DNA of 58,267 bases from Pseudomonas oryzihabitans NBRC 102199 (GTDB taxonomy: Bacteria > Pseudomonadota > Gammaproteobacteria > Pseudomonadales > Pseudomonadaceae). The translations under genes were made by a program, and so were the position numbers. The notes below the pieces were generated by a model. That model saw only the letters and a list, made by a program, of their open reading frames with translations. It was not told where the DNA came from and searched no databases. Below are positions 81-51,344 of the stretch, piece after piece (position 1 is the first letter of the stretch; the number at the start of each line of letters is the position of its first letter). Location of the stretch: assembly GCF_000730625.1 (NCBI RefSeq), contig NZ_BBIT01000008.1:1-58267 (forward strand), written 5' to 3'.

Positions 81-96
81 AAGAACAACAACAAAA
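81..96 (+). promoter_or_regulatory. A-rich AANAANAA tract (Hfq/Crc catabolite-repression target) upstream of atoE
   Basis: AAGAACAACAACAAAA runs into the Shine-Dalgarno AAAAGGA, 10 bases before the atoE ATG. AANAANAA in the ribosome-binding region is the established recognition element of Hfq with Crc in Pseudomonas. This tract contains several overlapping matches, so translational catabolite repression of the permease is inferred. Confidence 0.65.
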
Positions 97-105
97 GGAT
101 CCACC

Positions 106-1527
106 ATGAGTTCAACCCCTTCCCGCGATTCGCGCAGCGCGCGGTTCGCCCTGGCCTGTTCCAACTGGGCCGAGCGCTGGTTTCCCGATTCCTGGGTGTT
201 CGCCGTGCTCGCCGTGGCCGTGGTGGCCCTGGCTGCCCTCGGCATGGGCGCGCCGGCGGCCAAGACCGCCAAGGCCTTTGGCGACGGTTTCTGGAGCCTG
301 ATTCCCTTCACCATGCAGATGGCCTTCGTGGTCATCGGCGGCTATGTGGTGGCCAGTTCCGGTCCGGCCGGGCGCCTGATCGAGCGCCTGGCGCGGGTGC
401 CCCGTACCGGACGTGGCGCGGTGTGCTGGGTGGCCCTGGTGGCCATGCTCGCCTCCCTGCTCAACTGGGGCCTGAGCCTGGTGTTCGGCGGCCTGCTGGT
501 GCGCGCCCTGGCCCGCCGCGAAGAACTCAAGATGGACTATCGCGCCGCCGGCGCCGCGGCCTACCTGGGCCTGGGCGCGGTCTGGGCGCTGGGGCTGTCG
601 TCGTCGGCGGCGCAGCTGCAGGCCAATCCGGCCAGCCTGCCGCCCTCGATCCTCGCCATCACCGGGGTGATTCCCTTCAGCCAGACGCTGTTCCTCTGGC
701 AATCGGGCGCCCTGCTGCTGGTGCTGCTGGTGGTCTCGGCGGTGATCGCCTATGTCACCGCGCCAGGGCCGGACAGCGCGCGCGATGCCCGTGCCTGTGG
801 CGTTGACGTCACCCCGGCGCCCAAGCCGGCCGCTAAGCCGACCCGTCCAGGCGAATGGCTGGAATACAGCCCCATCCTGATCATCCTGCTGGTGCTCCTG
901 GCCGCGGGCTGGCTGGTGCAGGAATTCGCCAGCAAGCCGGCCATCGAGGCCATTTCCGGGCTGAACACCTACAACCTGCTGTTCATCTCCCTGGGCGCCC
1001 TGCTGCACTGGCGGCCGCGACATTTCCTCGACGCCGTGGCCCGCGCCGTGCCGGCCACTACCGGAGTGCTGATCCAGTTTCCGCTGTACGGCTCCATCGC
1101 TGCCATCCTGACCAAGGTCAATGGCGCCGATGGCCAGACTCTGGCGCACCATATCGCGGCATTTTTCACCCAGATCGCCACCCACGACACCTTCGCCCTG
1201 CTGATGGGCGTCTACTCGGCCCTGCTGGGGTTCTTCATCCCCTCAGGCGGGGGCAAGTGGATCATCGAGGCGCCCTACGTCATGCAGGTGGCCAACGATC
1301 TGCAGTATCACCTGGGCTGGGCCGTGCAGATCTACAACGCCGCCGAGGCATTGCCGAATCTGATCAATCCCTTCTACATGCTGCCGCTGCTGGGCGTGCT
1401 GGGGCTGAAGGCGCGCGACCTGGTCGGCTTTTCCTTCGTGCAGCTGCTGGTCCATGCACCCCTGGTGCTGGTGCTGCTATGGCTGTTGGGGGGAACGTTG
1501 GCCTATCTGCCGCCGGTACACCCGTAG
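106..1527 (+). CDS. atoE: Short-chain fatty acid permease, AtoE family
   Basis: A 473-residue polytopic inner-membrane protein made largely of hydrophobic segments, with a cytoplasmic Arg/Lys-rich stretch (around residues 125-145) and a hydrophilic loop near residues 215-240. Length and phrases such as NWGLSLVFGG and FFIPSGGGKW match the AtoE/short-chain fatty acid transporter family, which takes up acetoacetate, butyrate and similar acids. The ATG at 106 has a good Shine-Dalgarno (AAAAGGA) preceded by an A-rich Hfq/Crc-type tract, so it is probably repressed when preferred carbon sources are present. No partner acetoacetate-CoA transferase genes are visible downstream; upstream lies outside the window. 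Confidence 0.88.
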   Translation: MSSTPSRDSRSARFALACSNWAERWFPDSWVFAVLAVAVVALAALGMGAPAAKTAKAFGDGFWSLIPFTMQMAFVVIGGYVVASSGPAGRLIERLARVPRTGRGAVCWVALVAMLASLLNWGLSLVFGGLLVRALARREELKMDYRAAGAAAYLGLGAVWALGLSSSAAQLQANPASLPPSILAITGVIPFSQTLFLWQSGALLLVLLVVSAVIAYVTAPGPDSARDARACGVDVTPAPKPAAKPTRPGEWLEYSPILIILLVLLAAGWLVQEFASKPAIEAISGLNTYNLLFISLGALLHWRPRHFLDAVARAVPATTGVLIQFPLYGSIAAILTKVNGADGQTLAHHIAAFFTQIATHDTFALLMGVYSALLGFFIPSGGGKWIIEAPYVMQVANDLQYHLGWAVQIYNAAEALPNLINPFYMLPLLGVLGLKARDLVGFSFVQLLVHAPLVLVLLWLLGGTLAYLPPVHP

Positions 1528-1583
1528 CTCGGGTGGGGCGCAGACGGTAAAGCGGGAGGGGTGGAGCGGGAGCCGGCTGAATC

Positions 1584-1808
1584 TCAGCCGGCGATGGCCA
1601 GGCGGGTGCTGTCGATGATGGCCTGCAGGCGGCTCGGGTTGCTGTATTCGTCGCGGTAGATCCGGCGGGTGTGCTTGGCCACGCCATGCTCGTTGACGAC
1701 GATGAAGGAAAAACCACGCTTGCTGGGCGCGTCGATGACGCAGCTCATCGGCGCGAAAGCGGCGCTGAGGGCATGCATGGCGTTCTGGGCTTGGGCTTGT
1801 ATGTTCAT
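1584..1808 (-). CDS. Small protein, possibly DUF3509 family
   Basis: A 74-residue protein starting MNIQAQAQNA (ATG at 1808); a GTG start at 1829 would add seven residues. The centre reads like a short beta-rich domain (FAPMSCVIDAP, FSFIVVNEHGVAKHTRRI) followed by a C-terminal helix ending RLAIAG. This pattern resembles the DUF3509 family common in pseudomonads, but I recognise it only loosely. It is convergent with atoE and separated from it by about 55 bases; its stop lies in a GC-rich hairpin (1572-1592). No function can be assigned. Confidence 0.55.
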   Translation of the reverse strand: MNIQAQAQNAMHALSAAFAPMSCVIDAPSKRGFSFIVVNEHGVAKHTRRIYRDEYSNPSRLQAIIDSTRLAIAG

Positions 1809-1940
1809 GACTTCAGTTGTAAACCTCACGTGTGACGCTGCTATGACAAAGGTCTTGACCGATAGTGCCTAGACTTGCCAGTTATTGTTAGCAATAGGCG
1901 TGCCGGAATGTAACAAGGCCTTTTCCAGCACGCCCTGCCC

Positions 1941-2693
1941 TCACTTGCCGGCAGCCTGCTGGCGACGCTTGGCCCGCCGCGACAGCATGTTCAGGCCCTC
2001 GATCAGCGCCGAGAAGGCCATGGCCGCGTAGATATAGCCCTTGGGCACATGGGCGCCGAAACCTTCGGCGATCAGGGTCATGCCGATCATGATCAGGAAG
2101 CCCAGCGCCAGCATCACGACGGTGGGGTTGTCGTTGATGAACCTGGCCAGGGGGTCGGCCGCCAGCAACATGACGGTCACCGCCACCACCACCGCGATCA
2201 CCATCACCGGCAGGTGCTCGGTCATGCCGACGGCGGTGATGATGCTGTCCACCGAGAACACCAGGTCCAGCAGGAGGATCTGCACGATGGCCGAACCGAA
2301 GGCCAGGGTCGCCGTCTCGCCGCCCTTGCTCAGGGCGCTGTCGGGCTCGGGATCGACGTTGTGGTGGATCTCCTTGGTCGCCTTCCACAGCAGGAACAGG
2401 CCACCGGCGATGAGGATCAGGTCCTTCCAGGAAAAGCTCTTGCCGAACACTTCGATGATGGGCTCGGTGAGCTGGACGATCCAGGCCACGGTACCGAGCA
2501 GACCCAGGCGCAGGATCAGCGCCAGGCTGATGCCGATGCGGCGGCCCTTCTGCTGTTGGTGCGCGGGCAGCTTGTTGGTCAGGATGGAGATGAAGATGAG
2601 GTTGTCGATGCCCAGCACCACTTCCATCACGATCAAGGTGGCGAGAGCAGCCCAGACGGTCGGGTCGGCGGCGAGTTGTAGCAGATAGTCCAT
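1941..2693 (-). CDS. TerC-family integral membrane protein
   Basis: A 250-residue multi-span inner-membrane protein. The N-terminal phrase [19 protein letters not shown] and the internal repeat [16 protein letters not shown] are the two acidic-residue-containing membrane motifs of the TerC/YgdQ/YoaE family, which have been linked to metal-ion (Mn or tellurite-associated) handling. The length agrees with the short members without CBS or CorC extensions. It stands alone on the minus strand, with a terminator hairpin for the upstream ABC operon between the two. Its specific ion is unknown. Confidence 0.85.
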
Positions 2694-2721
2694 TGCGGCG
2701 CGGTTCCAGTGGGAAGAGAAA

Positions 2722-13676: not shown

Positions 13677-13931
13677 GAGGAAACCAAACGGCCATCGCCG
13701 CTGCCCAAAAAGGCGACGGCTGGGCTGTAAAGCGTGGAAAATGCAGTGCGGATCAGGTTTTCACGGCCCTGCTTGATCGAATACCCTATCGCTCTTTCGC
13801 CCGCTATGCGTATCCTGTAGCGCCGAACAACAAGGCTGCTTCAACCGGCCACGTAGAGGCTCACAAAGGCTCTACGCAAGGCAAAGCTGCCGCTATACTG
13901 CCTGGCCAATACTCACACATGGAGTTTTTAC

Positions 13932-22069: not shown

Positions 22070-22080
22070 TTGTTCTTGTT
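22070..22080 (-). promoter_or_regulatory. AANAANAA tract upstream of the porin gene
   Basis: AACAAGAACAA on the minus strand contains overlapping AANAANAA matches in the leader of the outer-membrane channel gene. Candidate Hfq/Crc site. Confidence 0.55.
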
Positions 22081-22904: not shown

Positions 22905-22915
22905 TTGTTGTTATT
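22905..22915 (-). promoter_or_regulatory. AANAANAA tract upstream of calA
   Basis: AATAACAACAA followed by GAGG, 12 bases before the calA ATG (minus strand). Candidate Hfq/Crc translational control site overlapping the ribosome-binding region. Confidence 0.65.
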
Positions 22916-24415: not shown

Positions 24416-24423
24416 TTGTTGTT
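24416..24423 (-). promoter_or_regulatory. AANAANAA tract upstream of the aldehyde dehydrogenase
   Basis: AACAACAA directly abuts GGAG, 10 bases before the ATG on the minus strand. Candidate Hfq/Crc site. Confidence 0.65.
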
Positions 24424-29480: not shown

Positions 29481-29488
29481 TTATTGTT
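29481..29488 (-). promoter_or_regulatory. AANAANAA tract upstream of the MFS gene
   Basis: AACAATAA on the minus strand, followed by GACGGAGAG and the MFS ATG 14 bases on. Candidate Hfq/Crc site. Confidence 0.5.
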
Positions 29489-30536: not shown

Positions 30537-30544
30537 TTGTTGTT
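30537..30544 (-). promoter_or_regulatory. AANAANAA tract upstream of the hydroxyacid dehydrogenase
   Basis: AACAACAA followed by GGGATAA, 12 bases before the ATG on the minus strand. Candidate Hfq/Crc site. Confidence 0.6.
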
Positions 30545-31414: not shown

Positions 31415-31432
31415 TCCGTATCCCGAATGAAG

Positions 31433-33151: not shown

Positions 33152-33204
33152 GGATAACCTCTGTTGTAATTATTGTGGAGCTGACAAGGGCGCCGGAGCG
33201 CTGT

Positions 33205-34125: not shown

Positions 34126-34189
34126 GACCAGGCACCTGAGAGAGGCTGAAGCCCCTCGGCAAAAAAGGCTATGCAATTTTATTTTTAAC

Positions 34190-34321: not shown

Positions 34322-34324
34322 AAA

Positions 34325-34332
34325 AATAACAA
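34325..34332 (+). promoter_or_regulatory. AANAANAA tract upstream of the ABC binding-protein gene
   Basis: AATAACAA merges into the Shine-Dalgarno AAGGAG, 10 bases before the ATG. Candidate Hfq/Crc site. Confidence 0.6.
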
Positions 34333-34342
34333 GGAGAACGCC

Positions 34343-35386: not shown

Positions 35387-35387
35387 C

Positions 35388-37083: not shown

Positions 37084-37125
37084 CTCGCCCCTCACTATCC
37101 AAAAGCCTTCTCCGGAGCCGTCGCC

Positions 37126-38193: not shown

Positions 38194-39412
38194 GGCTGTC
38201 GCGACGGACCTCGCCGGGACTCTGGATCCCCAGCAGCGCCATGTTGCGCGACAGTTCGGTGGCCAGGATGCCGATCGCATGCTTGATGCCCGGCTGGCCG
38301 CCCACGGCACCGGCATAGTTCATCGGTCGACCGACGAAGACGAAGGTCGCCCCCAGCGCGAGCGCCATGAGGATGTCACCGCCGCGGCGGAAGCCGCTGT
38401 CGATCATCACCGGATAATCCGAACCGACCGCCTTGACCACCTGCGGCAGGATGGCGAGGGGCGCGACACTGCCATCCAGCTGGCGTCCGCCGTGGTTGGA
38501 AACGATGATGCCCTCCACGCCGACCTCCCGGGCGCGCACGGCATCCGCCGGATCGAGGATGCCCTTGACCACCAGGGTGCCCGGCCAGTGGCGGCGGATC
38601 AGCGCCAGATGCCGCCAGCTCAAATGATCGCGGGCGCCGAAATCGCGCATCACATTGGCCGACACGATGGGCGCGCCACGGCCGACGCCGGAATTCTCGA
38701 AGTGCGGCATGCCCCGCCGGAGCAGGGTGCGCAAGGCGGTACCCAGCAGCCAGCGCGGGTGGGTGATGCCCTCCCAGGCCAGGTGCAGATCCGGCTTCAA
38801 CGGCGTGGAAAAGCGTGCGCGAATCAGATTCTCCCGATTGGCCGACACCGGTACGTCGGCGGTGACCATCAGCGTCTTGAAACCGGCGCGCTGCACCCGC
38901 TCGAGGAGAGCGAGGATCTTGGCGTCTTCGCCCGGCATATAGGCCTGGAACCAGGCGTCCGGATTTTCCTGCACCACCGCCTCCATCGGCAGCAGGGAGG
39001 AGCCGCTCATGATCGCCGGGATATTGGCCTCCCTGGCCGCCCGGGTCTGGATGAGGTCACCCTCGAAGGCGGTGAGGGCACTGATGCCCATGGGCGCGAT
39101 GCCGAAGGGCGCGCTGTAGCGCTGCCCCAGGAGCGTCGTTTCGAGGCTGCGCGCCGAGGTATCGGTGAAGACGCGCGGGACCCAGGCATAGCGATCGAAT
39201 CCCGAGCGGTTCCCGTGCAGCGACTTTTCCTCTTCCGCGCCACCGCTGACGTAGGCGAACAGCGGCGTGGGCAGGTGGCGGCGAGCGGCCACCTCGAAGT
39301 CATCGAGGGACAGAATCGCCTGCAGGCGTCGGGGTATCCGGTAGCCGCCGCTGCCCTTGGGCAGGGTGTGGGACGCCAAGGGATAGTCTTGCAGTCTGCT
39401 CGTCTGGTTCAT
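38177..39412 (-). CDS. FMN-dependent alpha-hydroxyacid oxidase/dehydrogenase
   Basis: A 411-residue member of the lactate dehydrogenase LldD/glycolate oxidase/mandelate dehydrogenase family. Landmarks: FAYVSGGAEEEKSLHGNR, FGIAPMGISAL, FQAYMPGE, MVTADVPVSANRE, VVKGILDPADAVRAREVG, the active-site IIVSNHGGRQLDG and the FMN-phosphate site DSGFRRGGDILMALALGA. It oxidises an (S)-2-hydroxyacid to the 2-oxoacid. Divergent from a LysR gene, 87 bases away, which probably controls it. Confidence 0.87.
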   Translation of the reverse strand: MNQTSRLQDYPLASHTLPKGSGGYRIPRRLQAILSLDDFEVAARRHLPTPLFAYVSGGAEEEKSLHGNRSGFDRYAWVPRVFTDTSARSLETTLLGQRYSAPFGIAPMGISALTAFEGDLIQTRAAREANIPAIMSGSSLLPMEAVVQENPDAWFQAYMPGEDAKILALLERVQRAGFKTLMVTADVPVSANRENLIRARFSTPLKPDLHLAWEGITHPRWLLGTALRTLLRRGMPHFENSGVGRGAPIVSANVMRDFGARDHLSWRHLALIRRHWPGTLVVKGILDPADAVRAREVGVEGIIVSNHGGRQLDGSVAPLAILPQVVKAVGSDYPVMIDSGFRRGGDILMALALGATFVFVGRPMNYAGAVGGQPGIKHAIGILATELSRNMALLGIQSPGEVRRDSLRIVR

Positions 39413-39499
39413 GCCGCTGGCCTGGTCGTTTTGGCCATCTTAGGCGCCCGACCCGCCAAGAAAAGTTATTCTTCGTCGATCCAAAGACGAGAAAAACTC

Positions 39500-40366
39500 A
39501 TGAAGATCGAAGCCTTCCTGACCTTGCAGGCGGCAGTGGAGCGCGGCTCCTTCGCCGCCGCCGCGGAGGCGGTGAGCCTGACCCCCAGCGCTGTCAGCCT
39601 GCAGATCAAGCAGCTCGAGGCCTACTTCGGCCAGTCACTGTTCGATCGCTCGGGTCGGGCGGTGCAAGCCACGGGGTTCGCCCGGCAATTGATCGACACC
39701 ATGGCCCGGCCGTTGGCCGATCTCGAGAAGTTGCGCAATCAGCGCGCCCAGCCGCTGACCGGTCGCGTCCGTCTCGGGGTGACGGGTTCGGTCCTGACCA
39801 CCCTGCTCCCCAAGGCGGTCGCCGAACTGCAGCAACGCGCTCCCGGCATCACCCTGCAACTGGAGCGGCACAATACGCCCGAATTGATCGCCGCCCTGAA
39901 AGCGGATCGCCTGGATGCCGCCATCCTGATCAGACCACCAGGCGGCGGCTCGGCCCGGCTGCATTGGCATGACCTGCTCCGCGAGCCGCTGGTACTGGTG
40001 GTGCCAGCGCAGCTCGCGCCCCTGGAGCCAGAGGCGTATCTGCGGCGCTATCCCTGGATCAGGCTGGATCGCAAGCTGGTGGTCGGTCGCCTGGCGGCGC
40101 GCTTCGTCGATGGCCTGGTGCCCCAGTGCGAGGCCCTGCTCGATGTCCCCAGCGCCGACGCCATCGTCGCCATGGTCGGCCTGGGTCTGGGCGTCTCGGT
40201 GCTGCCGCGACTGCGCCCGGAACACCTGGGGCCCTATGAGATAAGGGAGGTCTCCCTCGGCACCGCCGCGCCCACTCGCCAACTCGCCATGGCGCGTCGC
40301 AAGCAGGACTCCGAAAGCGCCTTGCTCGACACCATCGCCCAGGCCTTCGACGTCGCCTGCCGCTAG
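39500..40366 (+). CDS. LysR-family transcriptional regulator
   Basis: A 288-residue LysR protein: MKIEAFLTLQAAVERGSFAAAAEAVSLTPSAVSLQIKQLEAYFGQSLFDRSGR forms the winged helix-turn-helix, followed by an effector domain (RVRLGVTGSVLTTLLPKAVAEL). Divergent from the FMN oxidase gene, with an imperfect TTCTTCGTC/GACGAGAA dyad in the short intergenic region. Convergent with the tctCBA operon. The inducer is unknown, likely a hydroxyacid. Confidence 0.86.
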   Translation: MKIEAFLTLQAAVERGSFAAAAEAVSLTPSAVSLQIKQLEAYFGQSLFDRSGRAVQATGFARQLIDTMARPLADLEKLRNQRAQPLTGRVRLGVTGSVLTTLLPKAVAELQQRAPGITLQLERHNTPELIAALKADRLDAAILIRPPGGGSARLHWHDLLREPLVLVVPAQLAPLEPEAYLRRYPWIRLDRKLVVGRLAARFVDGLVPQCEALLDVPSADAIVAMVGLGLGVSVLPRLRPEHLGPYEIREVSLGTAAPTRQLAMARRKQDSESALLDTIAQAFDVACR

Positions 40367-40410
40367 CACGCCGAGGGGGCGGCGAGCTCAGCCCGTCGCC
40401 CCCTCCCCGC

Positions 40411-41919
40411 TCAGGCCTCCTCCTCCTGGAAGGCCTCCTCCCGCTTCCGGCGAAACGCCGGCAACACCATCATCACCAGCAGGATGGCCGAGGCGGCGAA
40501 CAGGGTGGCGCTGATCGGCCGCTGGACGAGCACGGACGGATCCCCCTGGGAAATCAGCAGGGCGCGTCTCAGGTTGGTCTCCAGCAAGGGGCCGAGGACG
40601 AAACCCAGCAGCAGCGGACCCGGCTCGCACTTGGCCTTGCGGAACAGATAGCCCAGCAGCCCGAAGATGATCACCAGGGCGACATCGAAGCCGCGGTTGT
40701 TGACGCTGTAGACCCCGACGCAGCAGAACAGCAGGATGGCCGGGAACAGCAGCCGATACGGCACCTGCAGCAGCCGCACCCAGACGCCGATGAGCGGCAG
40801 GTTGATGACCAGCAGCATCAGGTTGCCGATCCACATGCTGGCGATCAGACCCCAGAACAGCGCCGGCTGGTTGGTGATCACCGAGGGCCCCGGGGTGATG
40901 CCATGGATCATCATGGCGCCGAGCATCATGGCCATGATCGAGTTGGACGGAATGCCAAGGGTCAGCAGCGGGATGAAGGACGACTGGGCGCCGGCGTTGT
41001 TGGCCGACTCCGGCGCGGCGACGCCCTCCACCATCCCGGTGCCGAATTGCTCCGGTGTCTTGGAGACCTTCTTTTCCAGCGAATAGGCGCTGAAGGCGCT
41101 CAGGGTCGCACCGCCGCCCGGCAGGACGCCGAGGAAGGTCCCCAACGCCGTGCCCCTCAGGGTAGCCGGCCAGGCCCTGCGGAAGTCCTCGCGGGTGGGC
41201 CACAGCCGGGTGATCTTGCCGGCCAGGGTGCCGCGGGCCTCGCGGGATTCGAGGTTGACGGCGATCTCGGCGATGCCGAACAGGCCCACGGCGATCACCA
41301 CGAAGTCGATGCCGTCGTAGAGGTCGGTGGAACCGAAGGTCAGGCGCGTGGTGCCGCTGCTGACATCCATGCCCACCATGCCGAGCAGCAGTCCCAGGCA
41401 GACCATGCCGACCGCCTTGATCACCGATCCGCTGGCCAGGATGGTCGCCGCCAGCAGACCGAAGACGGTGAGCGCCACGTATTCCGCCGGCCCGAAGGAC
41501 AGGGCGAAGCGCGACAGCACCGGGCCGGCCACCGCCAGGGCCACGGTGGCGACGGTCCCGGCGAAGAAGGACGCCAGGGCGGCGATGGCAAGCGCTGCTC
41601 CCGCCCGTCCGCGCTTGGCCATGGCATGGCCGTCCAGCGCCGTGACCACCGCCGAGGCCTCGCCCGGCAGATTGACCAGGATCGCCGTGGTCGAGCCGCC
41701 GTATTGCGCACCGTAGAAGATGCCGGCGAGCATGATCAGGGCGGCCAGCGGTGGCAGGAAATAGGTGATCGGCAGCAGGATCGCCACCGTCGCCGTGGGC
41801 CCGATGCCGGGCAGCACGCCGATCAGGGTTCCGAGCAGGGCGCCGATCAGGCAGAACGCCAGGTTGGTCGGGCTCATGGCTTCGGAGAAGCCCAGGTAGA
41901 GCGCGTCGAAGATCTCCAT
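40411..41919 (-). CDS. tctA: Tripartite tricarboxylate transporter, large membrane subunit TctA
   Basis: A 502-residue polytopic protein starting MEIFDALYLGFSEAMSP. Family signatures GTLIGVLPGIGPTATVAILLP, GIFYGAQYGGSTTAILVNLPGE and LPGGGATLSAF, and APESANNAGAQSSFIPLLTLGIPSN, are all present. Its ATG shares one base with the tctB stop (TGATG). It is the ion-coupled membrane component of a TTT system; the substrate is set by the binding protein. Confidence 0.9.
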   Translation of the reverse strand: MEIFDALYLGFSEAMSPTNLAFCLIGALLGTLIGVLPGIGPTATVAILLPITYFLPPLAALIMLAGIFYGAQYGGSTTAILVNLPGEASAVVTALDGHAMAKRGRAGAALAIAALASFFAGTVATVALAVAGPVLSRFALSFGPAEYVALTVFGLLAATILASGSVIKAVGMVCLGLLLGMVGMDVSSGTTRLTFGSTDLYDGIDFVVIAVGLFGIAEIAVNLESREARGTLAGKITRLWPTREDFRRAWPATLRGTALGTFLGVLPGGGATLSAFSAYSLEKKVSKTPEQFGTGMVEGVAAPESANNAGAQSSFIPLLTLGIPSNSIMAMMLGAMMIHGITPGPSVITNQPALFWGLIASMWIGNLMLLVINLPLIGVWVRLLQVPYRLLFPAILLFCCVGVYSVNNRGFDVALVIIFGLLGYLFRKAKCEPGPLLLGFVLGPLLETNLRRALLISQGDPSVLVQRPISATLFAASAILLVMMVLPAFRRKREEAFQEEEA

Positions 41920-42380
41920 CAGAAAGGCCCCACACGCATTTGGACATCCAGTCCATAGATGAAGACCAGCACGCCGAACAGGGTCAGCACCACGCTGGAG
42001 ATCAGCACCTCGCGCAGCCGCCACTCGCGGTCGGCCATGCTGCCGAAGATCACCAGCCCGGCCGCCGCGACGATGAAGCCGGCATACTCGGCCGCCAGGG
42101 CGAAGCCGCCGACGGAAGCCAACAGGATCAATAAAGGCCTGAGCTGTACGGCGCCGATGGATTCCGCGTGCTGCCACAGACCCAGCAGACCGATGACGAC
42201 GCCGAGGATGATCACCAGCGAGCCGACCAATACCGGTAGATAGCCCGGCCCCATCATGGCCGCGCTGCCGAACGGCAGATCCTTCGACGACCAGAGCACC
42301 AGCGCCCCCAGGCCGATGAAGATGGCACTGGCGAGCAAGTCGGGGCGGCTACCGCGCGCCGCGCGTGTCACTGCACCCAT
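41919..42380 (-). CDS. tctB: Tripartite tricarboxylate transporter, small membrane subunit TctB
   Basis: A 153-residue protein starting MGAVTRAARGSRPD, with four hydrophobic segments (LLASAIFIGLGALVLW, YLPVLVGSLVIILGVVIGLLGLW, the ILLASVGGFALAAEYAGFIVAAAGLVIFG pair, VLISSVVLTLFGVLVFIYGL). Position and size identify TctB. It overlaps the tctC end by 13 bases and the tctA start by one base. Confidence 0.86.
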   Translation of the reverse strand: MGAVTRAARGSRPDLLASAIFIGLGALVLWSSKDLPFGSAAMMGPGYLPVLVGSLVIILGVVIGLLGLWQHAESIGAVQLRPLLILLASVGGFALAAEYAGFIVAAAGLVIFGSMADREWRLREVLISSVVLTLFGVLVFIYGLDVQMRVGPF

Positions 42381-43321
42381 GGCGAGACGCTCCACAGCTT
42401 CTGGTAACCCGCGAGCTGCGCCGGCATCTGGGCTGCCCAGTCCTCGCCGGACAGATAGGCCAGCGGCAGCGAGAGGTCCCCGGCCTGCTTGACGAAGGCC
42501 GGATCCTCGATGACCTCTTTCACGGCCTGCGCCATCCGCTGCTCGATGGCCTCGGGCACCCCGGACGGGGCGGCGATGCCCCGTTCGGAGGTCATGACCA
42601 GGTCGACGCCCTGCTCCCTGGCAGTGGGTAGATTGGGCTGCTGCGGCATGCGCTCGGCAGAGAATTGGGCCAGCACGCGGAAGTCGTCGTCCGCGTTCAT
42701 CTCGCTGATGTTCTGCCCGGCCGCGCTGATATGGCCGCCCATCAGGGCGGTGCGGGATTCGGAAGCGCCACTGAAAGGCACGTGGGTGAGCTTGATGTCG
42801 GTCAGCTGCTGCAGCTCCACCATCATCAGGTGGTCATCCGTCCCGACGCCGGAGGTGCCGACCGAGAACTTGCCGGGCGCTGCCTTGGCGGCCGCGGTGA
42901 AGTCGGCCAGGGTCTGGTAGGAGGAATCCTTGGGCACCGCCAGCACCGTGGGATCGTCGACGATGCGCGCCACCGGGCGAATCTTCGCCGGGTCGTAGCC
43001 GACCTTGCGCTGCACGCGGGTACTCAGGAAGCCGGGGGTATTGATGAAGGCGAAGGTGTAGCCATCGGGTTTCGCCTTGCTCAGCATGGTGTAGGCGATC
43101 TCGCCCGCCGCGCCGGGGCGGTTGACGATGACGATCTTTGCGCCCAGGCGCTTCTCCAGATAGGGCTGCATCGCGCGCGCCATGACATCGGTGCTGCCAC
43201 CGGGGGCATAGGCGACCAGGAATTCGATCGGCCGGTCTTCCGGCCAGGCGGCCTGCGCACTGAAGGAGCTGAGGGACAGCGCCAGGAAAGAGGCAAGCAC
43301 AGCACTCGCGGTCTTGGTCAT
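42368..43321 (-). CDS. tctC: Tripartite tricarboxylate transporter substrate-binding protein TctC
   Basis: A 317-residue periplasmic protein with a signal peptide (AVLASFLALSLSSFSAQA). The Bug/TctC family phrases WPEDRPIEFLVAYAPGGSTDVMARAM and VIVNRPGAAGEIA are present. First gene of tctCBA. Leader AACAAAAACAA before GAGAG (candidate Hfq/Crc site), and further upstream the GGAATGCCATTTC operator at 43478-43490. The ligand is probably a (hydroxy)carboxylate. Confidence 0.88.
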   Translation of the reverse strand: MTKTASAVLASFLALSLSSFSAQAAWPEDRPIEFLVAYAPGGSTDVMARAMQPYLEKRLGAKIVIVNRPGAAGEIAYTMLSKAKPDGYTFAFINTPGFLSTRVQRKVGYDPAKIRPVARIVDDPTVLAVPKDSSYQTLADFTAAAKAAPGKFSVGTSGVGTDDHLMMVELQQLTDIKLTHVPFSGASESRTALMGGHISAAGQNISEMNADDDFRVLAQFSAERMPQQPNLPTAREQGVDLVMTSERGIAAPSGVPEAIEQRMAQAVKEVIEDPAFVKQAGDLSLPLAYLSGEDWAAQMPAQLAGYQKLWSVSPWVQ

Positions 43322-43334: not shown

Positions 43335-43345
43335 TTGTTTTTGTT
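43335..43345 (-). promoter_or_regulatory. AANAANAA tract upstream of tctC
   Basis: AACAAAAACAA on the minus strand, followed by TCGAGAG and the tctC ATG 13 bases on. Candidate Hfq/Crc site. Confidence 0.55.
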
Positions 43346-45266: not shown

Positions 45267-47135
45267 TTACGCCCTGATCAACAGCGGCGCCGTTCCCCGG
45301 TAGCAAGCGTCCAGCCGCTCGGCGCGATGGGCCAGGACGCTGCGCTGGTTGAGCGAGCCCTTGTCGGTGATCTCGCCGCGGTCGGCGGATGGTGGCTCTT
45401 CCTGCAGGGCGATCCATTCCAGGCGGCTGGCGTTGCCCGAGGCCTCGCGATTGAGGCGCCCCAGCCAGGCGGCGAACCAGTCCTGCACCGGGGCGCTGGC
45501 CAGTACCGTGGCGGCATCGACCCCATCGTCCAGCCCGGCCAGTTGCCGGCAGTCCGCCAGGCGCGGAAAGACCAGCAGCCCCAGGCACTCGCGATCCGGC
45601 GCCGCCACCACCACGTCCTGCACCAGCGGCGTCCCCTCCAGCACCGCGCGATTGCGCAGGGGACCGACGCTGACGAACACCCCGGACGACAGCTTGAAGT
45701 CCTCGGCGATGCGGCCGTCGAACATCAGGCCCAGTTGCGGATTGGCCGGATCGACCAGCTTGAGCGCATCGCCCGAGCAGTAGAAGCCTTCCTCGTCGAA
45801 GCAGGCGGTGGTCTGGGCGGCATCGCGCCAGTAGCCGGGCATGATGTGCGGACCGCGGAAGCGCCCTTCCAGCTTGCCGTCCACCGGTACCAGCTTGAGT
45901 TCGCAGCCCGGCGCCGGCACCCCGACATAGCCGGCCACCGACAGCGGGCCGGTGGTGAAGGTGCAACTGGGCGAGGCCTCGGTCATGCCCAGGCCGGCCA
46001 TCATGCGGATGCGTTCGCCGCAGTGGGCCTCGGCGATGCGATCCAGGCGATCCCAGACGCTTTGCGACAGCCCCGCCGCGGCAAAGAAGAACAGTCGCAT
46101 GCGGGCGAAGAAGCGCTCGCGCAACTTGGCGTCGCGCTCCAGCGCATTGGCCAGCTCCTCCCAGCCGCGCGGCACCGTGAGGTAGGCGGTGGGCGATACC
46201 TCCTGCAGGTTGCGCAGGGTTTCGCCAAAGCCCTGGGGCGTCGGCTTGCCCTCGTCCAGGTAGAAGGTGCCACCGTTGTAGAGCACGATCCCCAGGTTGT
46301 GGCTGCCGCCGAAGGTGTGGTTCCAGGGCAGCCAGTCCACCAGCACCGGCGGCTCTTCGCCGAACACCGGAAAGGTCTGCAACAGCATCTGCTGGTTGGC
46401 GCAGAGCATGCGCTGGGTGGTGGTCACCGCCTTGGGCAGCTTGGTGGAACCTGAGGTGAAGAGAAACTTGGCGATGCTGTCCGGCCCGGTGGCGGCGAAG
46501 GCGCGCTCGGCGGCGGCCAGTTCGCCGCGGGCGAGCAGCGCCGCGAAGGCCAGGGTGCTGCGACCCTGCACCTGGCCGCGGGTCGCGATCACCGGTACGT
46601 CGGCGGGCAGTACGGCATCCAGCGCCTTCTGGAAGGCCGGGCCGTCGCTGACGAACACCAGCCCCGGCTGCAGCAGACCGCAGACATGGCGCAGCTTGGC
46701 GTGGTCCTGGGACAGCAGCGCATAGCCGGGTGACACCGGGCAGAAGGGAATGCCGGCATAGAGCGCCGCCATGGCCAGTTGCAGGTGCTCGGGGTCGTTG
46801 CCGGAGAGAATCGCCAGCGGACGCTCGGCGCAGAGGCCGAACTCCAGCAGCGCGGCGGCCAGCTGGCGCACTCGCTGCAGCATCTCGCCATAGGAAAATT
46901 CGCGCCAGGCGCCGCCGGCGTCCCGCGCGGCGAAGAAGGTGCGGTCCGGTGCCACTTCGGCCCAGTGCAGCAGGCGATCCAGCAGCCGCGGCGGCGGTGG
47001 GGTCAGGGCTTCCTGGGAGGCCATGTAGAGCAGCCCCCCGCGCTCTTCCACCGTGACCCCGGGGTGGCCCAGGGTCACCGGGCGATAGCGCAGCGGCTGA
47101 TCGGCGGGCGCGCGGGTTTGCGTGACGTGACTCAC
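45267..47135 (-). CDS. fcs: Feruloyl-CoA synthetase
   Basis: A 622-residue adenylate-forming acyl-CoA ligase with a GTG start (AGGAG eight bases upstream). AMP-binding motif FLFTSGSTKLPKAV (about 224-237), then LVDWLPWNHTFGGSHN, MMAGLGMTEASPSCTF and the late YCSGDALKL. It activates ferulate (and probably p-coumarate/caffeate) with ATP and CoA. Last gene of the ech-vdh-fcs operon. Its C terminus is followed by the tandem repeat array. An AACAACAATAA tract lies 39 bases ahead of the start, further than in the other genes. Confidence 0.9.
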   Translation of the reverse strand: MSHVTQTRAPADQPLRYRPVTLGHPGVTVEERGGLLYMASQEALTPPPPRLLDRLLHWAEVAPDRTFFAARDAGGAWREFSYGEMLQRVRQLAAALLEFGLCAERPLAILSGNDPEHLQLAMAALYAGIPFCPVSPGYALLSQDHAKLRHVCGLLQPGLVFVSDGPAFQKALDAVLPADVPVIATRGQVQGRSTLAFAALLARGELAAAERAFAATGPDSIAKFLFTSGSTKLPKAVTTTQRMLCANQQMLLQTFPVFGEEPPVLVDWLPWNHTFGGSHNLGIVLYNGGTFYLDEGKPTPQGFGETLRNLQEVSPTAYLTVPRGWEELANALERDAKLRERFFARMRLFFFAAAGLSQSVWDRLDRIAEAHCGERIRMMAGLGMTEASPSCTFTTGPLSVAGYVGVPAPGCELKLVPVDGKLEGRFRGPHIMPGYWRDAAQTTACFDEEGFYCSGDALKLVDPANPQLGLMFDGRIAEDFKLSSGVFVSVGPLRNRAVLEGTPLVQDVVVAAPDRECLGLLVFPRLADCRQLAGLDDGVDAATVLASAPVQDWFAAWLGRLNREASGNASRLEWIALQEEPPSADRGEITDKGSLNQRSVLAHRAERLDACYRGTAPLLIRA

Positions 47136-47173
47136 CTTGAATTCTCCTCTGGGCTGGCGCCCGGAGGCGCCTC

Positions 47174-47184
47174 TTATTGTTGTT
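47174..47184 (-). promoter_or_regulatory. AANAANAA tract upstream of fcs
   Basis: AACAACAATAA followed by GAGG on the minus strand, in the vdh-fcs gap. A GGCGCC-type hairpin lies between it and the fcs GTG, so the tract is unusually distant (39 bases). Confidence 0.5.
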
Positions 47185-47210: not shown

Positions 47211-48659
47211 CTAGATCGGGTAGTGACGTGGCCCCGTCTGCAGCGTCACCCAGCGCAACTGGGTGAAGTGGTCGATGGAGGCGCGCGAACCGAAGCTGCC
47301 GTAGCCACTGGACTTGACGCCGCCGAAGGGCATCTGCGCCTCGTCGTGCACCGTGGGGCCATTGATATGGCAGATGCCGCTCTCCACCCGCTGGGCCAGC
47401 GCCAGGGCGCGAGCGGTGTCGCGGCTGAAGATGGCGGACGAGAGACCGAATTCGGAGTCGTTGGCCAGGCGCAGCAGGGCTTCGTCGCCCTCGGCACGGA
47501 TCACCACCGCGACCGGTCCGAAGGATTCCTCGGCATAGAGCTGCATCTCGGCGGTGACGCCATCCAGCAGGGTCGGCTGGAGGATGCTGCCGTCGAGCTG
47601 GCCACCACAGACCAGCCGGGCGCCCTTGCCCACGGCGTCGTCGATCATGGCCTTGATGCGGGTGCCGGCGCTGGCGTCGATCAGCGAGCCCAGCACCGAG
47701 TCGGCTGCACTGGGATCACCCGCCTTGAGGGTGCGCACCTTGGCCACCAGGCGCTCGACGAAGGCGTCGGCGATACGGCTGTCGACCAGCAGGCGCTCGG
47801 TGGACATGCAGATCTGCCCCTGGTTGAAGTAGGCGCCAAAGGCTGCCGCGGCGACCGCGGCATCCAGGTCGGCGTCTTCCAGCACCAGCAGCGGCGCCTT
47901 GCCGCCCAGTTCCAGCACGGCGGGCTTCAGATGGCGCGCCGACAGCTCGCCAACGATGCGACCGACCCGGGTGGAGCCGGTGAAGTTGACCCGCCGCACC
48001 GCCGGGTTGGCGATCAGCCGTTCGACGATGGCCGGGGCATCCTCCGGGGCGTTGGTGACGACGTTGACCACGCCGTCGCCCAGCCCGGCGTCCTGCAGCA
48101 CCTGGCCGATCAGCCGGTGCACGCCCGGACTCTGCTCCGACGCTTTGAGCACCACGGTATTGCCGCAGGCCAGCGGCATGGCCAGGGCGCGGGTCCCCAG
48201 GATCACCGGAGCATTCCAGGGCGCGATACCCAGCACCACGCCACAGGGCTGGCGCAAGGCCATGGCGAAGCTGCCGGGAACGTCGGAAGGGATGACTTCG
48301 CCCTGGATCTGGGTGGTCATGGCCGCCGCCTCGCGCAGCATGTTGGCGGCCAGGTGGACGTTGAAGCCGTACCAGTTGGCCATGGCTCCGGTCTCCCCGG
48401 CCAGGGCGACGAATTCGCCACTGCGCGCCGCCAGGCCATCGGCTGCCGCCAGCAAACGGCGGCGGCGCTCGCCTGGCGGCAACGCCGCCCAGGCGGGAAA
48501 GGCGGCCTGGGCCGCGGCCACCGCGGCGTCGGCATCGTCCAGGGTGGCGGCGGCCACCGTGGAGACCACCGCGCCAGTCACCGGATGGCAACGCTGATAG
48601 CTGCGACCGTCGCCGGCCGGGCGGCTGGCGCCGCCGATGAGCAGGGATACCTCGACCAT
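47211..48659 (-). CDS. vdh: Vanillin dehydrogenase
   Basis: A 482-residue NAD-dependent aldehyde dehydrogenase. Asn149 in IAPWNAP, Glu250 in LELGGK and Cys284 in NQGQICMSTE form the active site. The run ETGAMANWYGFNVHLAAN and the ending FTQLRWVTLQTGPRHYPI match Pseudomonas Vdh closely. It oxidises vanillin (and p-hydroxybenzaldehyde) to vanillate. Middle gene of ech-vdh-fcs; its leader has AACAACAAGAGG nine bases before the ATG. Confidence 0.92.
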   Translation of the reverse strand: MVEVSLLIGGASRPAGDGRSYQRCHPVTGAVVSTVAAATLDDADAAVAAAQAAFPAWAALPPGERRRRLLAAADGLAARSGEFVALAGETGAMANWYGFNVHLAANMLREAAAMTTQIQGEVIPSDVPGSFAMALRQPCGVVLGIAPWNAPVILGTRALAMPLACGNTVVLKASEQSPGVHRLIGQVLQDAGLGDGVVNVVTNAPEDAPAIVERLIANPAVRRVNFTGSTRVGRIVGELSARHLKPAVLELGGKAPLLVLEDADLDAAVAAAAFGAYFNQGQICMSTERLLVDSRIADAFVERLVAKVRTLKAGDPSAADSVLGSLIDASAGTRIKAMIDDAVGKGARLVCGGQLDGSILQPTLLDGVTAEMQLYAEESFGPVAVVIRAEGDEALLRLANDSEFGLSSAIFSRDTARALALAQRVESGICHINGPTVHDEAQMPFGGVKSSGYGSFGSRASIDHFTQLRWVTLQTGPRHYPI

Positions 48660-48670: not shown

Positions 48671-48678
48671 TTGTTGTT
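48671..48678 (-). promoter_or_regulatory. AANAANAA tract upstream of vdh
   Basis: AACAACAA abuts GAGG in the ech-vdh gap, 11 bases before the vdh ATG (minus strand). Candidate Hfq/Crc site. Confidence 0.65.
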
Positions 48679-48698: not shown

Positions 48699-49529
48699 CT
48701 AGCGCTTGTAGGTCTGCAGACCGGGCTTGATGCTCTTGTCGTCGAGGAACTGCTTCATGCCCTGCTCGCGACCGCCTTCCGGATCCTGCAGGCGCGACTG
48801 GTCGAGCTTGGCATAGAGGTAGTCCTCGTTCTGCTCCCAGGTCAGCTCGCGGCAGCGCTTGAAGCCGACCTTGGCGGCGCGCAGCACCACCGGATTCTTG
48901 TCCAGCAGCTCGCGGGCCAGGGCGGTGGTCACCTCGCGCAACTGGTCGCGCGGCACGCTCTGGTTGACCAGGCCCATGGCCGCGGCCTCGGGACCGCTGA
49001 AGGTCTTGCCGGTCATCACATAGTAGAGGGCGGTGCGATGGCCCACGGTGTCGGCCAGGGCCTTGCTCACCAGGTTGCCCGGCGGGATGCCCCAGTTGAT
49101 CTCGGACAGGCCGAAGGTGGCCTCGTTGGCGGTGATGGCCAGGTCGCAGGCCACCAGCGGACTGAAGCCGCCGCCAAAGCACCAGCCGTTGACCATGGCG
49201 ATGGTCGGCTTGGCGTACATGCGCAACAGCTTCCACTGCCACTGGGAGGCTTCGCGGCGAATCTTTTCCTGCAGGATCTCCGGGCCGGCATCGGTCTCGC
49301 GGAAGTATTCCTTGAGGTCCATGCCCGCGGTCCAGGCCTCGCCGGCACCGGTCAGCACCAGCACGCCGGCAGTGGCGTCCTGCTCCAGGGTTTCCAGCAC
49401 CTCGACCATCTCGCGGTTGAGGGTGGGGCTCATGGCATTGCGTTTTTCCGGACGATTGAGCGTCACCCAGGCGATACCGTCCTCGATGTCCACTTTGACC
49501 GTCTGCCAGCGTCCGTCGTAACTGCCCAT
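48699..49529 (-). CDS. ech: Feruloyl-CoA hydratase/lyase (enoyl-CoA hydratase/aldolase)
   Basis: A 276-residue crotonase-family protein, the exact length of Pseudomonas fluorescens HCHL. The residues known to matter there are at the same numbers: Tyr75 (DLKEYF), Ser123 (GGGFSP), Glu143 (LSEINWG) and Tyr239 (DYLYAK). It hydrates and cleaves feruloyl-CoA to vanillin and acetyl-CoA without an external oxidant. First gene of the ech-vdh-fcs operon. AACAACAAGAGG precedes the ATG. Confidence 0.94.
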   Translation of the reverse strand: MGSYDGRWQTVKVDIEDGIAWVTLNRPEKRNAMSPTLNREMVEVLETLEQDATAGVLVLTGAGEAWTAGMDLKEYFRETDAGPEILQEKIRREASQWQWKLLRMYAKPTIAMVNGWCFGGGFSPLVACDLAITANEATFGLSEINWGIPPGNLVSKALADTVGHRTALYYVMTGKTFSGPEAAAMGLVNQSVPRDQLREVTTALARELLDKNPVVLRAAKVGFKRCRELTWEQNEDYLYAKLDQSRLQDPEGGREQGMKQFLDDKSIKPGLQTYKR

Positions 49530-49541
49530 GGCGTGTGCCTC

Positions 49542-49549
49542 TTGTTGTT
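49542..49549 (-). promoter_or_regulatory. AANAANAA tract upstream of ech
   Basis: AACAACAA abuts GAGG on the minus strand, 12 bases before the ech ATG. Candidate Hfq/Crc site. Confidence 0.65.
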
Positions 49550-49635
49550 GGGTGGGTATGGCACTGAAGCTACGCCAGGGAATTAGTTAAGTCAATTAAC
49601 TATTTTTGGCAAAACGATGACCCTGGCAAAAGCGG

Positions 49636-50979
49636 CTAGCCCAGCGCCTTGCCCGCGGACACGCTAAAACCCGCTGACGCCGGCCGTCCTTCGGGGCGGG
49701 TCAGCAGGAGCAGCAGCCCCGCCGCGACGAAGACGCCAGCAAAGACCAGGTACAGCCGCAGCGGCGGCCACCCGTTATCGAGCAGCAGTCCTGCTACTAC
49801 CGGCGAGAGAATGGCGCCCAGGCGACCAATCCCGATGCCCCAGCCCACCCCGGTGGCGCGCACTTCGGCGGCATAGGCCAGCGCCGGCAGCGCATAGAGT
49901 CCGGCGACGCAGCCATTGGCGAAGAGCCCGATCAGCAGGCCCATGGCCAGGGCGCCCAGGTAGGAACTGCCCATATGGGCGAAGGCCACCAGCAGCAGCG
50001 CGGTGGTCAGCATGAAGCCGCCCAGCGCCCGGGACAGCGGCAGGCGAGCGAACAGCAGACCCACCAGGGCGGCGCCAAAGATGCCGCCCACGCTCAGCAG
50101 CACGCCACCGGCCACCCCCTGCTGCTCGGAAAGCCCCAGGGTGGTCAGCAGCTTGGGCGTCCAGCTCATGATGAAGTAGAAGCCGAACATGGCCAGAAAG
50201 AACAGCGTCCACACCAGCAGGGTGGTCCGCCGCAAGGCCGGAGCCAGCAGCCGGCCAACGGTGCCGGCGGCGCCGGGGCCTTGCACCTGCGGTGGCAGCG
50301 CGGCGAGCTCAGGCTGGCCAAGTCGCCGGGCCAGGCGATTGACCTGCACCAGGGCGCTGACCGGCCGCCGCGTGAGCAGAAAATCCAGCGATTCCGGCAG
50401 ACCAAGGAGCACCAGTGGCAGGGCGCCCAGGGTGATGAGGCCACCCGCGCAGAAGACCGCGCGCCAGCCCCAGTGCGACAGCAGCCAGACCGCCAGCAAG
50501 CCACCCAGGGTCGCTCCCAGCGCATAGCCCATGCCCTGCAAGCTGACCGCCAGGCCCCGCCAGCGGCGCGCCGAATATTCGCTGGCGATCACGTTGCTGC
50601 TGGCCAGCACTCCCCCCACGCCCAAGCCGGTAAGGCCGCGCAGCAGTGCCAGTTGCAGCGGCGACCCCGCCAGCGCCGAGAGCAGCATGCCGATCCCCGA
50701 GAGCAGCAGGCAGACCAGGATCAGCCGGCGGCGCCCCCAGCGATCGGCCAGCGGCGCCAGCAGCAGCGAACCGGCCGCCATGCCGACCAGGCCGGCGCTG
50801 AGCAGCAGCCCGACCTGAGCGCCGGAGAGTCCCCACTCGCGGGAAACCGAGGCCGCGGTAAAGGCCATCACCAGCACATCGAAGCCATCGATCATGTTGA
50901 GCAGGATGCACACCAGCACGGCCAGGTACTGGAAGCCGCGCATAGGCCCCCGGTCGACGATCTCGCGCAGATCGGTCAT
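49636..50979 (-). CDS. MFS aromatic-acid:H+ symporter (AAHS family), vanillate/ferulate transporter candidate
   Basis: A 447-residue 12-span transporter starting MTDLREIVDRGPMRGFQYLAVLVCILLNMIDGFDVLVMAF. The NMIDGFDVLVMAF first helix, LADRWGRRRLIL loop and the paired late motif resemble PcaK/VanK/BenK. It sits between ech and vanA and is divergent from vanAB, so it probably imports vanillate or a related acid. Its ATG overlaps the stop of a 29-codon leader frame that carries the ribosome-binding and A-rich signals. Named by family only; PcaK-type specificity cannot be excluded. Confidence 0.83.
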   Translation of the reverse strand: MTDLREIVDRGPMRGFQYLAVLVCILLNMIDGFDVLVMAFTAASVSREWGLSGAQVGLLLSAGLVGMAAGSLLLAPLADRWGRRRLILVCLLLSGIGMLLSALAGSPLQLALLRGLTGLGVGGVLASSNVIASEYSARRWRGLAVSLQGMGYALGATLGGLLAVWLLSHWGWRAVFCAGGLITLGALPLVLLGLPESLDFLLTRRPVSALVQVNRLARRLGQPELAALPPQVQGPGAAGTVGRLLAPALRRTTLLVWTLFFLAMFGFYFIMSWTPKLLTTLGLSEQQGVAGGVLLSVGGIFGAALVGLLFARLPLSRALGGFMLTTALLLVAFAHMGSSYLGALAMGLLIGLFANGCVAGLYALPALAYAAEVRATGVGWGIGIGRLGAILSPVVAGLLLDNGWPPLRLYLVFAGVFVAAGLLLLLTRPEGRPASAGFSVSAGKALG

Positions 50980-51065
50980 AGCCCACCTCGCGCAACGAAC
51001 AGGTGACGGCGACCGCGCGGGACGCGCCCGGGATTGGACGGAAAGAGAGCGAGGCGTACTGACAT
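50976..51065 (-). CDS. Possible 29-residue leader peptide of the AAHS transporter gene
   Basis: Starts ATG 51065 (MSVRLALFPSNPGRV...; an in-frame ATG at 51074 adds three residues) and stops in TGA overlapping the transporter ATG (ATGA). AAGGA lies ten bases upstream and the AACAACAAGAA tract directly before that. The strong initiation signal belongs to this frame, while the transporter start has only a GAGGTGGG ahead of it. Translational coupling is plausible. Not recognised as a protein family; it could be chance. Confidence 0.35.
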   Translation of the reverse strand: MSVRLALFPSNPGRVPRGRRHLFVARGGL

Positions 51066-51081
51066 GGCGAGCATCCTTGGG

Positions 51082-51092
51082 TTCTTGTTGTT
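51082..51092 (-). promoter_or_regulatory. AANAANAA tract in the transporter leader
   Basis: AACAACAAGAA on the minus strand, just upstream of AAGGATG and about 100 bases ahead of the transporter ATG. Candidate Hfq/Crc site acting on the leader frame. Confidence 0.55.
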
Positions 51093-51120
51093 GGAATCTC
51101 AGCCCGCTAACGCTGGCAAA

Positions 51121-51332
51121 TATGGATCCAATCCACAAGATACCGCTGCCCAATCGAATCCAGGCGCCACCTCTGTCCTGCCCGGAAAGCGCTGGCCGAT
51201 CAAGGCTATTCCGTCCTACAAGAACCCTTATCTTTGACCAATTAGCGGGCGATTATCGAGCAGCAATCGCGCTCGACGACCTGGCAGCCGCATTGACACC
51301 CCTAAAGACCTCAATCGATTATTGGATCCAAT
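51121..51332. promoter_or_regulatory. Two VanR-type operators in the transporter-vanA intergenic region
   Basis: ATTGGATCCAAT at 51321-51332 is a perfect 12-bp palindrome, the same sequence as the Caulobacter VanR operator. TATGGATCCAAT at 51121-51132 matches 10 of 12. One lies 25 bases before vanA, the other near the divergent transporter transcript, so VanR can control both directions. The 51093-51336 gap contains no gene. Confidence 0.75.
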
Positions 51333-51336
51333 AGAC

Positions 51337-51344
51337 AACAACAA
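51337..51344 (+). promoter_or_regulatory. AANAANAA tract upstream of vanA
   Basis: AACAACAA abuts GAGG, 12 bases before the vanA ATG and four bases after the VanR operator. Candidate Hfq/Crc site. Confidence 0.65.

Follow-up and report, generated by a model that had tools for sequence, protein, structure and literature searches.

The contig NZ_BBIT01000008.1 of Pseudomonas oryzihabitans NBRC 102199 raises the question of why one short A-rich tract, a match to AANAANAA, recurs ahead of its catabolic and uptake genes, and why some cistrons go without it. The window considered here is this whole contig, 58,267 nucleotides (nt) of a 5.03-Mb genome in 34 contigs. An earlier note on this DNA listed thirteen such tracts, each of which proves to be an exact match at the position given (Table 1), and took them for the catabolite activity (CA) elements of an Hfq/Crc catabolite-repression regulon; that proposal is well supported by the position of the tracts, the class of the genes behind them, their conservation and the presence of Hfq, Crc and CrcZ in the genome. 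We consider it likely that the tracts, placed as they are at translation start regions, are sites bound by the distal face of Hfq and that together they make up such a regulon, one that appears to take in an aromatic-acid transporter through an upstream open reading frame (uORF).

The tracts are far more numerous than base composition would lead one to expect. Counting both strands, overlapping matches and in-gene AAGAAGAA, the window holds 34 matches to AANAANAA, as against 1.93 expected from 100 dinucleotide shuffles. Gene starts were taken from a purpose-built dicodon and ribosome-site caller rather than from the published annotation (trained on the window and 32 stretches of the same genome, 679 kb in total with a GC content of 66.5%), and genes with open 5′ ends or less than 60 nt of upstream sequence were omitted. 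On this footing the motif begins at −40 to −8 in 11 of 51 window genes against 14 of 549 background genes, or 2.6% (Fisher p = 1.0e-6), and at −60 to −8 in 12 of 51 against 16 of 549, the background being the 32 stretches (621 kb), chosen by position spacing with the exception of L034, which was chosen for CrcZ. The complement TTNTTNTT stands near the start of only 1 of the 51 and 1 of the 549, and the shuffles and this control together rule out chance composition as the source of the tracts. The commonest position relative to the start is −18 to −23. The earlier note had described most tracts as abutting a GAGG or GGAG ribosome-binding site, which is true of 7 of the 13, a bare majority, and a first genome-wide pattern that coupled the motif to a fixed spacing from GGAG was too narrow, finding 4 places only. 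Two tracts stand apart in position: the one at 47174 lies 46–49 nt from the GTG of its gene, beyond the 30 bases that the earlier note proposed to count, and that at 51082 stands before a uORF, outside the initiation region of the transporter proper.

The genes so marked are alike in kind. By NCBIfam and Pfam family, the window encodes a coniferyl-alcohol dehydrogenase and an aldehyde dehydrogenase; a p-hydroxycinnamoyl-CoA hydratase/lyase with vanillin-dehydrogenase-like and feruloyl-CoA-synthetase-like enzymes; a VanA-like Rieske oxygenase and reductase, together with a transporter of the aromatic-acid symporter family; and HpaX-like transporters, ABC and tripartite uptake systems (vdh, fcs, calA, calB and vanK are names given in this analysis from family and context). 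All 13 tract-bearing genes are catabolic or uptake genes by family, the one at 21110 on the strength of its Pfam name only, and the unrelated genes, comprising a mutasome, lpxO, terC, a betaine ABC system, hpxO and regulators as identified here, have no motif at −60 to −8, as the earlier note had said. The same preference is seen in the background, where 11 of the 16 genes with the motif at −60 to −8 are catabolic or uptake genes on a Pfam reading (an Edd-family dehydratase, a solute-binding protein, an epimerase, OprB, two citrate-family transporters, two MFS transporters, a short-chain dehydrogenase and two alcohol dehydrogenases), and the other 5 encode BatD, a PrpR-like regulator, a LysR regulator, a START protein and a protein without a family. 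A random control of 30 of the 401 motif-less genes of 150–700 amino acids (aa) gave 4 clear importers and 5 ambiguous enzymes, so that the catabolic or uptake share is 11/16 against 4 to 9/30 (Fisher p = 0.00025 without the ambiguous enzymes and 0.015 with them), a comparison in which the classing was done by the author of the analysis and was not blind. The contrast between catabolic and other genes that the earlier note had called for is thus borne out in this sample.

The tracts are also retained in orthologous leaders. Among eight genomes of the same genus, the strict motif is present in 64 of 65 leaders of eleven tagged genes, a set that excludes the leader at 106 and the transporter, as against 2 of 93 leaders of the remaining genes, both of them belonging to the gene at 33205, with the motif at −59; the transporter (0/3) was counted among the untagged genes, since its tract lies beyond −60, and orthologues below 70% identity, below 60% coverage or at the edge of a stretch were dropped. 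Identity to the window in these orthologues is 97.6% within the tract, 79.7% in the 25 nt upstream of it and 90.7% from tract to start, and the AAN period of the tracts is maintained. Across the family, own genus included, the strict motif is found in 28/30 vanA-like, 19/30 ech and 13/29 vdh leaders (matches below 45% identity, starting past residue 12 or at the edge of a stretch having been dropped), and many of the losses resemble, by eye, degenerate A-rich versions. The leader of the HpaX-like transporter at 31796–33151 has no strict motif and is probably such a degenerate site, its A-rich ACAAYAAYTACAASAGAGG being kept in its 4 orthologues. In the fcs-like leader (47135–47184, minus strand), a GGCGCC-N4-GGCGCC repeat with a varying loop lies between tract and Shine–Dalgarno sequence and is kept in 8/8 genus genomes; when this leader was folded the small GGCGCC hairpin did not stand out (z = −0.89), and hairpins are also present in published Hfq/Crc assemblies (PMC9890229).

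The genome encodes the proteins and RNA that such sites would need. There is one copy of Hfq and one of Crc (259 aa, E 1.7e-157 to the PDB catabolite repression control protein chain), and a CrcZ scoring 273.8 bits carries 12 overlapping motif starts. A second, short CrcZ-like RNA (G000:C33:730353-730596) scores 57.1 bits, below the family cut-off of 95, carries 4 motif starts and is perhaps CrcY or CrcX, and we infer CbrA and CbrB solely from the two genes next to CrcZ, of 982 and 472 aa. Hfq peaks obtained in P. stutzeri by enhanced crosslinking and immunoprecipitation are enriched for this motif; in that species changing the motif raised translation of zwf and gcd, and oprB and gtsA are Hfq-repressed (PMC11332353). 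In P. putida M2, Fcs, Ech, Vdh and VanA were lower on glucose addition, and VanAB is named as a Crc target in KT2440 (PMC10617552). From the sequence features described here we infer Hfq/Crc binding and repression at the window tracts of the following kind: while a preferred carbon source is present, Hfq together with Crc would cover the tract and the adjoining ribosome-binding site and block initiation, and once it is exhausted CrcZ-type RNAs, rich in the same motif, would titrate Hfq/Crc off. A catabolite-repression code that can be read from sequence would in this way come to include the P. oryzihabitans-group genes for ferulate, coniferyl alcohol and vanillate, which are useful in lignin conversion.

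Which genes carry a tract appears to depend on how they are spaced. The earlier note held that nearly all catabolic or uptake genes at the head of a transcription unit have one, which claims too much: by our reading 7 of 13 do (106, 22933, 29547, 34343, 42368, 49636 by way of its uORF, and 51357), or 7 of 11 without the exceptions that the note itself allowed (4470 and 8734). Among genes that follow a tagged gene within one run, 8/12 with a gap of more than 20 nt have their own tract as against 0/17 that are closer or overlapping (p = 1.2e-4). Every cistron is tagged in ech-vdh-fcs and in calB-calA-porin, and the ABC subunits at 35388 and 36205, TctB/TctA and the reductase that partners VanA lie 10 nt or less from the preceding gene and have no tract. 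This pattern fits the blocking of ribosome entry and suggests why some cistrons are untagged, in that one tract would be needed per ribosome-entry point, with spaced cistrons mostly having their own and close ones depending on the one upstream. Separate control of each cistron, as the earlier note suggested, would accordingly fit spaced cistrons only, and at the transporter the element stands instead before a coupled uORF.

At the transporter (49636..50979), tract and gene start come apart. The tract at 51082 lies 110–113 nt from the ATG (50979), before an intervening ORF of 29 or 32 codons (51065 or 51074 to 50976) in a frame different from that of the transporter, which is probably translationally coupled to it. 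Ribosomes would enter at the tract-bearing uORF and, since the uORF stop overlaps the transporter start, blocking the uORF would block the transporter as well. The arrangement recurs widely. In the family it was found at 30/30 loci (the loci scored from 36 genomes with a match among 298 searched), with the uORF ending from 15 nt before to 11 nt into the transporter and a tract 15–27 nt before the uORF, 28 strict and 2 with one mismatch. In the best 80 of 225 named loci, 76 were scored as having it, one from Comamonas and 75 of pseudomonad type (‘Pantoea sp. Ap-967’ being so classed from its sequence, a judgement), and these 75/75 pseudomonad-type loci have uORF ends from −15 to +16 and tracts of which 51 are strict and 24 have one mismatch. 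The two sets overlap, giving 105 loci together but 82 distinct leaders, with 57 strict and 25 one-mismatch tracts; their uORFs fall into 25 length and junction classes, with ends that include +1, +4, +8, +10, +11, +16 and 11–15 nt short of the start. A Pseudonocardiales metagenome-assembled genome showed no such uORF in the named-locus scoring, and none was seen in it by eye. The transporter has no match in five of 13 genus genomes, ech and vanA-like genes being found in all 13, and is reported with in-frame stops in two genus genomes (G009 and G008).

What recurs is the reading frame rather than its product. The ratio of nonsynonymous to synonymous differences (pN/pS) in the uORF is 0.82–0.97 in six of seven length groups, and about equal in the other two frames in the three groups tested, whereas codons 11–110 of the transporter give 0.06–0.18 in six of seven groups and 0.79 in the 28-aa group, where the main starts perhaps differ in position. 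Because the peptide is, on these ratios, nearly unconstrained while the ORF recurs, selection appears to keep translation of the uORF up to the transporter start and not the peptide made, and the transporter may serve as a natural example of this. Attenuation by a regulatory leader peptide would call for a constrained peptide or a terminator; the peptide is nearly unconstrained, and a scan by consensus only found no terminator-like site in 49400–51500. A scan of the window and the sample for other combinations of tract and uORF gave one weak candidate only (L006, with a stop 20 nt before the start), and its CC and GG controls were uninformative, falling largely inside genes. One aromatic-acid-symporter paralogue (L248) carries a tract directly before its own gene and lacks a coupled uORF, which shows that not every member of that protein family is preceded by one. 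The case also means that scans confined to the 30 bases before annotated starts can miss likely control sites.

The uORF may of course do its work whether or not a tract precedes it, as a constitutive bicistronic ribosome loader beside which the tract is incidental. In each of the four Comamonadaceae loci examined the transporter is preceded by a coupled ORF that has a Shine–Dalgarno sequence and no strict A-tract (those of Delftia, Variovorax and the second Comamonas being recognised by a test that requires none), so the uORF need not depend on the strict motif. A one-mismatch A-rich stretch is nevertheless present in two of the four, both from Comamonas, and absent from Delftia and Variovorax. 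In the 75 pseudomonad-type loci, moreover, the tract stands at the uORF start every time, at a spacing like that of other targets, where shuffled upstream DNA shows a strict match at that distance in 0.5% of cases and a match with at most one mismatch in 6.6%, and we therefore think an incidental tract rather unlikely. The reading that we modestly favour joins two propositions: that the coupled leader ORF of the VanK-type transporter is an old feature, captured by the Hfq/Crc system in pseudomonads as a dispensable mini-cistron, and that, more generally, the unit marked by a CA motif is the single independent point of ribosome entry and not the single gene. Repression would then be exerted at ribosome entry about 110 nt upstream of the transporter (66–143 nt in relatives) and passed on by the ribosomes, through a peptide of nearly free sequence.

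Several results weigh against an Hfq/Crc regulon organised in this way. Six first-in-unit catabolic or uptake genes (4470, 8734, 30740, 33205, 38177 and 55198) have no tract, and neither do 4 of the 12 spaced cistrons, with the spaced genes at 27151 and 37126 among the tractless. The spacing rule is itself confounded, because close genes leave no non-coding room and small gaps would force the tract into coding sequence. Further out in the family, ech and vdh leaders are often without the strict motif. The uORF peptide gives a pN/pS of 0.56 in one length group, made up of four 43-aa uORFs. RNA folding shows no consistent coupling switch, the transporter Shine–Dalgarno sequence being unpaired at a mean of 0.23, or 0.33 with the uORF held open, with large scatter; since folding gives no uniform switch, termination–reinitiation is as likely as unfolding to account for coupling. 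Finally, crc knockdown in P. putida M2 brought no significant change in aromatic catabolic proteins except PcaJ, and Ech of KT2440 is an exception in not being lowered by glucose (PMC10617552). The former is a partial and unfavourable answer to the earlier note's expectation that enzyme levels would change in a crc mutant. The motif alone over-predicts, because many motif-bearing candidates in KT2440 were not raised by CrcY/CrcZ overexpression (PMC12533007). These findings from M2 and KT2440 may bear on the general rule more than on the window sites, because beyond the genus the ech and vdh leaders often lack the strict tract.

The M2 knockdown is what one would see if Hfq acted at the tracts alone or with small RNAs and Crc added little, and the motif is after all an Hfq site, for which the P. 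stutzeri tests used an hfq mutant (PMC11332353). Against this, Crc and CrcZ are both encoded in this genome, published structures show Crc joining the repressive assembly (PMC9890229), and a knockdown may leave sufficient Crc, so that a minor role for Crc strikes us as unlikely. The unchanged aromatic enzymes of M2 could also point to a role in which the A-rich tracts promote initiation on GC-rich mRNAs, as translation enhancers or ribosome standby sites, and involve no repression, and the tracts do adjoin Shine–Dalgarno sequences (directly in 7/13), while those at the transporter are predicted to be accessible (mean unpaired 0.91). Enhancers, however, would serve highly expressed genes of all kinds, and the tract is confined to the small, mostly catabolic or uptake fraction of background genes noted above and keeps its AAN period across orthologues, making this very improbable. 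That the frame ahead of the transporter is open merely by chance, the DNA being GC-rich, is scarcely credible: shuffled intervening DNA does stay open, given the frame, in 0.55–0.94 of trials at most loci (0.07–0.08 at four), and a coupled ATG ORF heads 29/248 first-gene leaders of this genome, 8 with a Shine–Dalgarno sequence and the transporter's included, but the random-frame chance per locus is 0.22–0.66, mostly about 0.3, against 30/30 and 75/75 loci, 82 distinct leaders and 25 classes.

Table 1. Tracts and associated features in the window (positions on the whole stretch; orthologue counts are for the genus).
Feature	Position	Strand	Remark
AANAANAA tract in the leader of a short-chain-fatty-acid-transporter family gene (106–1527)	81..94	+	Pfam SCFA_trans
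Tract at −26/−23 of Phenol_MetA_deg family gene (21110–22054)	22070..22080	−	Kept in 5/5 orthologues
Tract at −23/−20 of coniferyl-alcohol dehydrogenase (22125–22892)	22905..22915	−	Kept in 6/6 orthologues
Tract at −18 of aldehyde dehydrogenase (22933–24405), coniferaldehyde dehydrogenase-like by context	24416..24423	−	Kept in 6/6 orthologues
Tract at −22 of HpaX-like MFS transporter (28135–29466)	29481..29488	−	Kept in 5/5 orthologues
Tract at −20 of 2-hydroxyacid dehydrogenase (29547–30524)	30537..30544	−	Kept in 5/5 orthologues
Tract at −21/−18 of NMT1/SsuA-like ABC substrate-binding protein (34343–35386)	34322..34332	+	Kept in 3/3 orthologues
Tract at −24/−21 of TctC substrate-binding protein (42368–43321)	43335..43345	−	Kept in 3/3 orthologues
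Tract at −49/−46 of feruloyl-CoA-synthetase-like acyl-CoA ligase (45267–47135, GTG start)	47174..47184	−	Kept in 8/8 orthologues
Tract at −19 of vanillin-dehydrogenase-like ALDH (47211–48659)	48671..48678	−	Kept in 7/8 orthologues
Tract at −20 of p-hydroxycinnamoyl-CoA hydratase/lyase (48699–49529)	49542..49549	−	Kept in 8/8 orthologues
Tract 15–27 nt upstream of two possible uORF starts, 110–113 nt from the transporter start	51082..51092	−	
Upstream ORF, 29 aa (32 aa from the ATG at 51074), out of frame, TGA overlapping the transporter ATG (ATGA)	50976..51065	−	
Aromatic acid/H+ symport family MFS transporter	49636..50979	−	NCBIfam TIGR00895, 359.3 bits, below cut-off 418.55
Tract at −20 of VanA-like Rieske oxygenase (51357–52415)	51337..51344	+	8/8 orthologues

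Some neighbouring features deserve a word. The Phenol_MetA_deg family gene (21110–22054) probably encodes an outer-membrane channel, going by its Pfam name only. The region 27151–43321, between the coniferyl and ferulate clusters, is variable in the genus, with no orthologues in the stretches from G003 and G007 and only a portion of the region represented in several others. A match to AACAACAA at 13826–13833 (plus strand) falls within a long intergenic region, some 100 nt ahead of the small gene that starts at 13932, and no Shine–Dalgarno sequence adjoins it. Directly upstream of the vanA-like tract stands a perfect palindrome, ATTGGATCCAAT, at 51321–51332 (plus strand), seen by eye in most family vanA leaders, and a partial copy lies at about 51122–51132, before the transporter tract. 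The palindrome is a candidate operator for a GntR regulator such as that at 53443–54150, which we take to be VanR-like.

Much of what is described here has precedents, the motif, the proteins and the target classes being already known and the transporter leader ORF being a variant of the cbrX kind. With the Hfq/Crc regulon of Pseudomonas (CA motif AANAANAA; CbrAB–CrcZ) the window shares the motif, its position at starts, catabolic and uptake targets, Hfq, Crc and CrcZ, and to it the window adds particular targets in a genome of the P. oryzihabitans group and the occurrence of tracts on one spaced cistron after another. Multi-tier Crc control of the benzoate and alkane pathways of P. putida was reportedly described by Hernandez-Arranz in 2013; there, as would be the case here, several steps of one pathway are said to be under Crc control, the genes here being those for ferulate, coniferyl alcohol and vanillate. 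The Crc-site prediction of Browne et al. 2010 pursued the same genome-scale idea and found transporters conserved as targets, and in its main text vanA, vanK, vdh, vanillate and ferul* are absent (PMC3003667). In those portions of the open-access literature that were searched, no description of a tract-bearing uORF at the transporter was found, and cbrX was the only Crc-linked leader ORF met.

For the leader ORF a close known system is cbrX–cbrA of P. putida, where the controlled gene is overlapped by a short ORF in another frame and an Hfq/Crc consensus stands ahead of that ORF. Expression of cbrA survived when the peptide was altered at constant length but was almost lost when the start codon was changed, and the authors propose that the Hfq/Crc site ahead of cbrX works by way of the cbrX–cbrA coupling (PMC6591292). 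In the present genome an ORF in the cbrX position (L034:4768-4983) overlaps the gene that is cbrA by position, beside CrcZ, by 17 nt, and no A-rich tract was seen upstream of it, in which the published P. putida case differs. As described in PMC8871633, cbrX, with 58 aa and an overlap of 17 nt, is conserved across the family. The uORF of the transporter, in contrast, encodes 18–43 aa, overlaps mostly by 4 nt, gives pN/pS values that do not indicate a conserved leader peptide such as that of cbrX, and heads an aromatic-acid transporter; by this analogy it would work like cbrX, through coupling to the gene behind it, but it is not cbrX.

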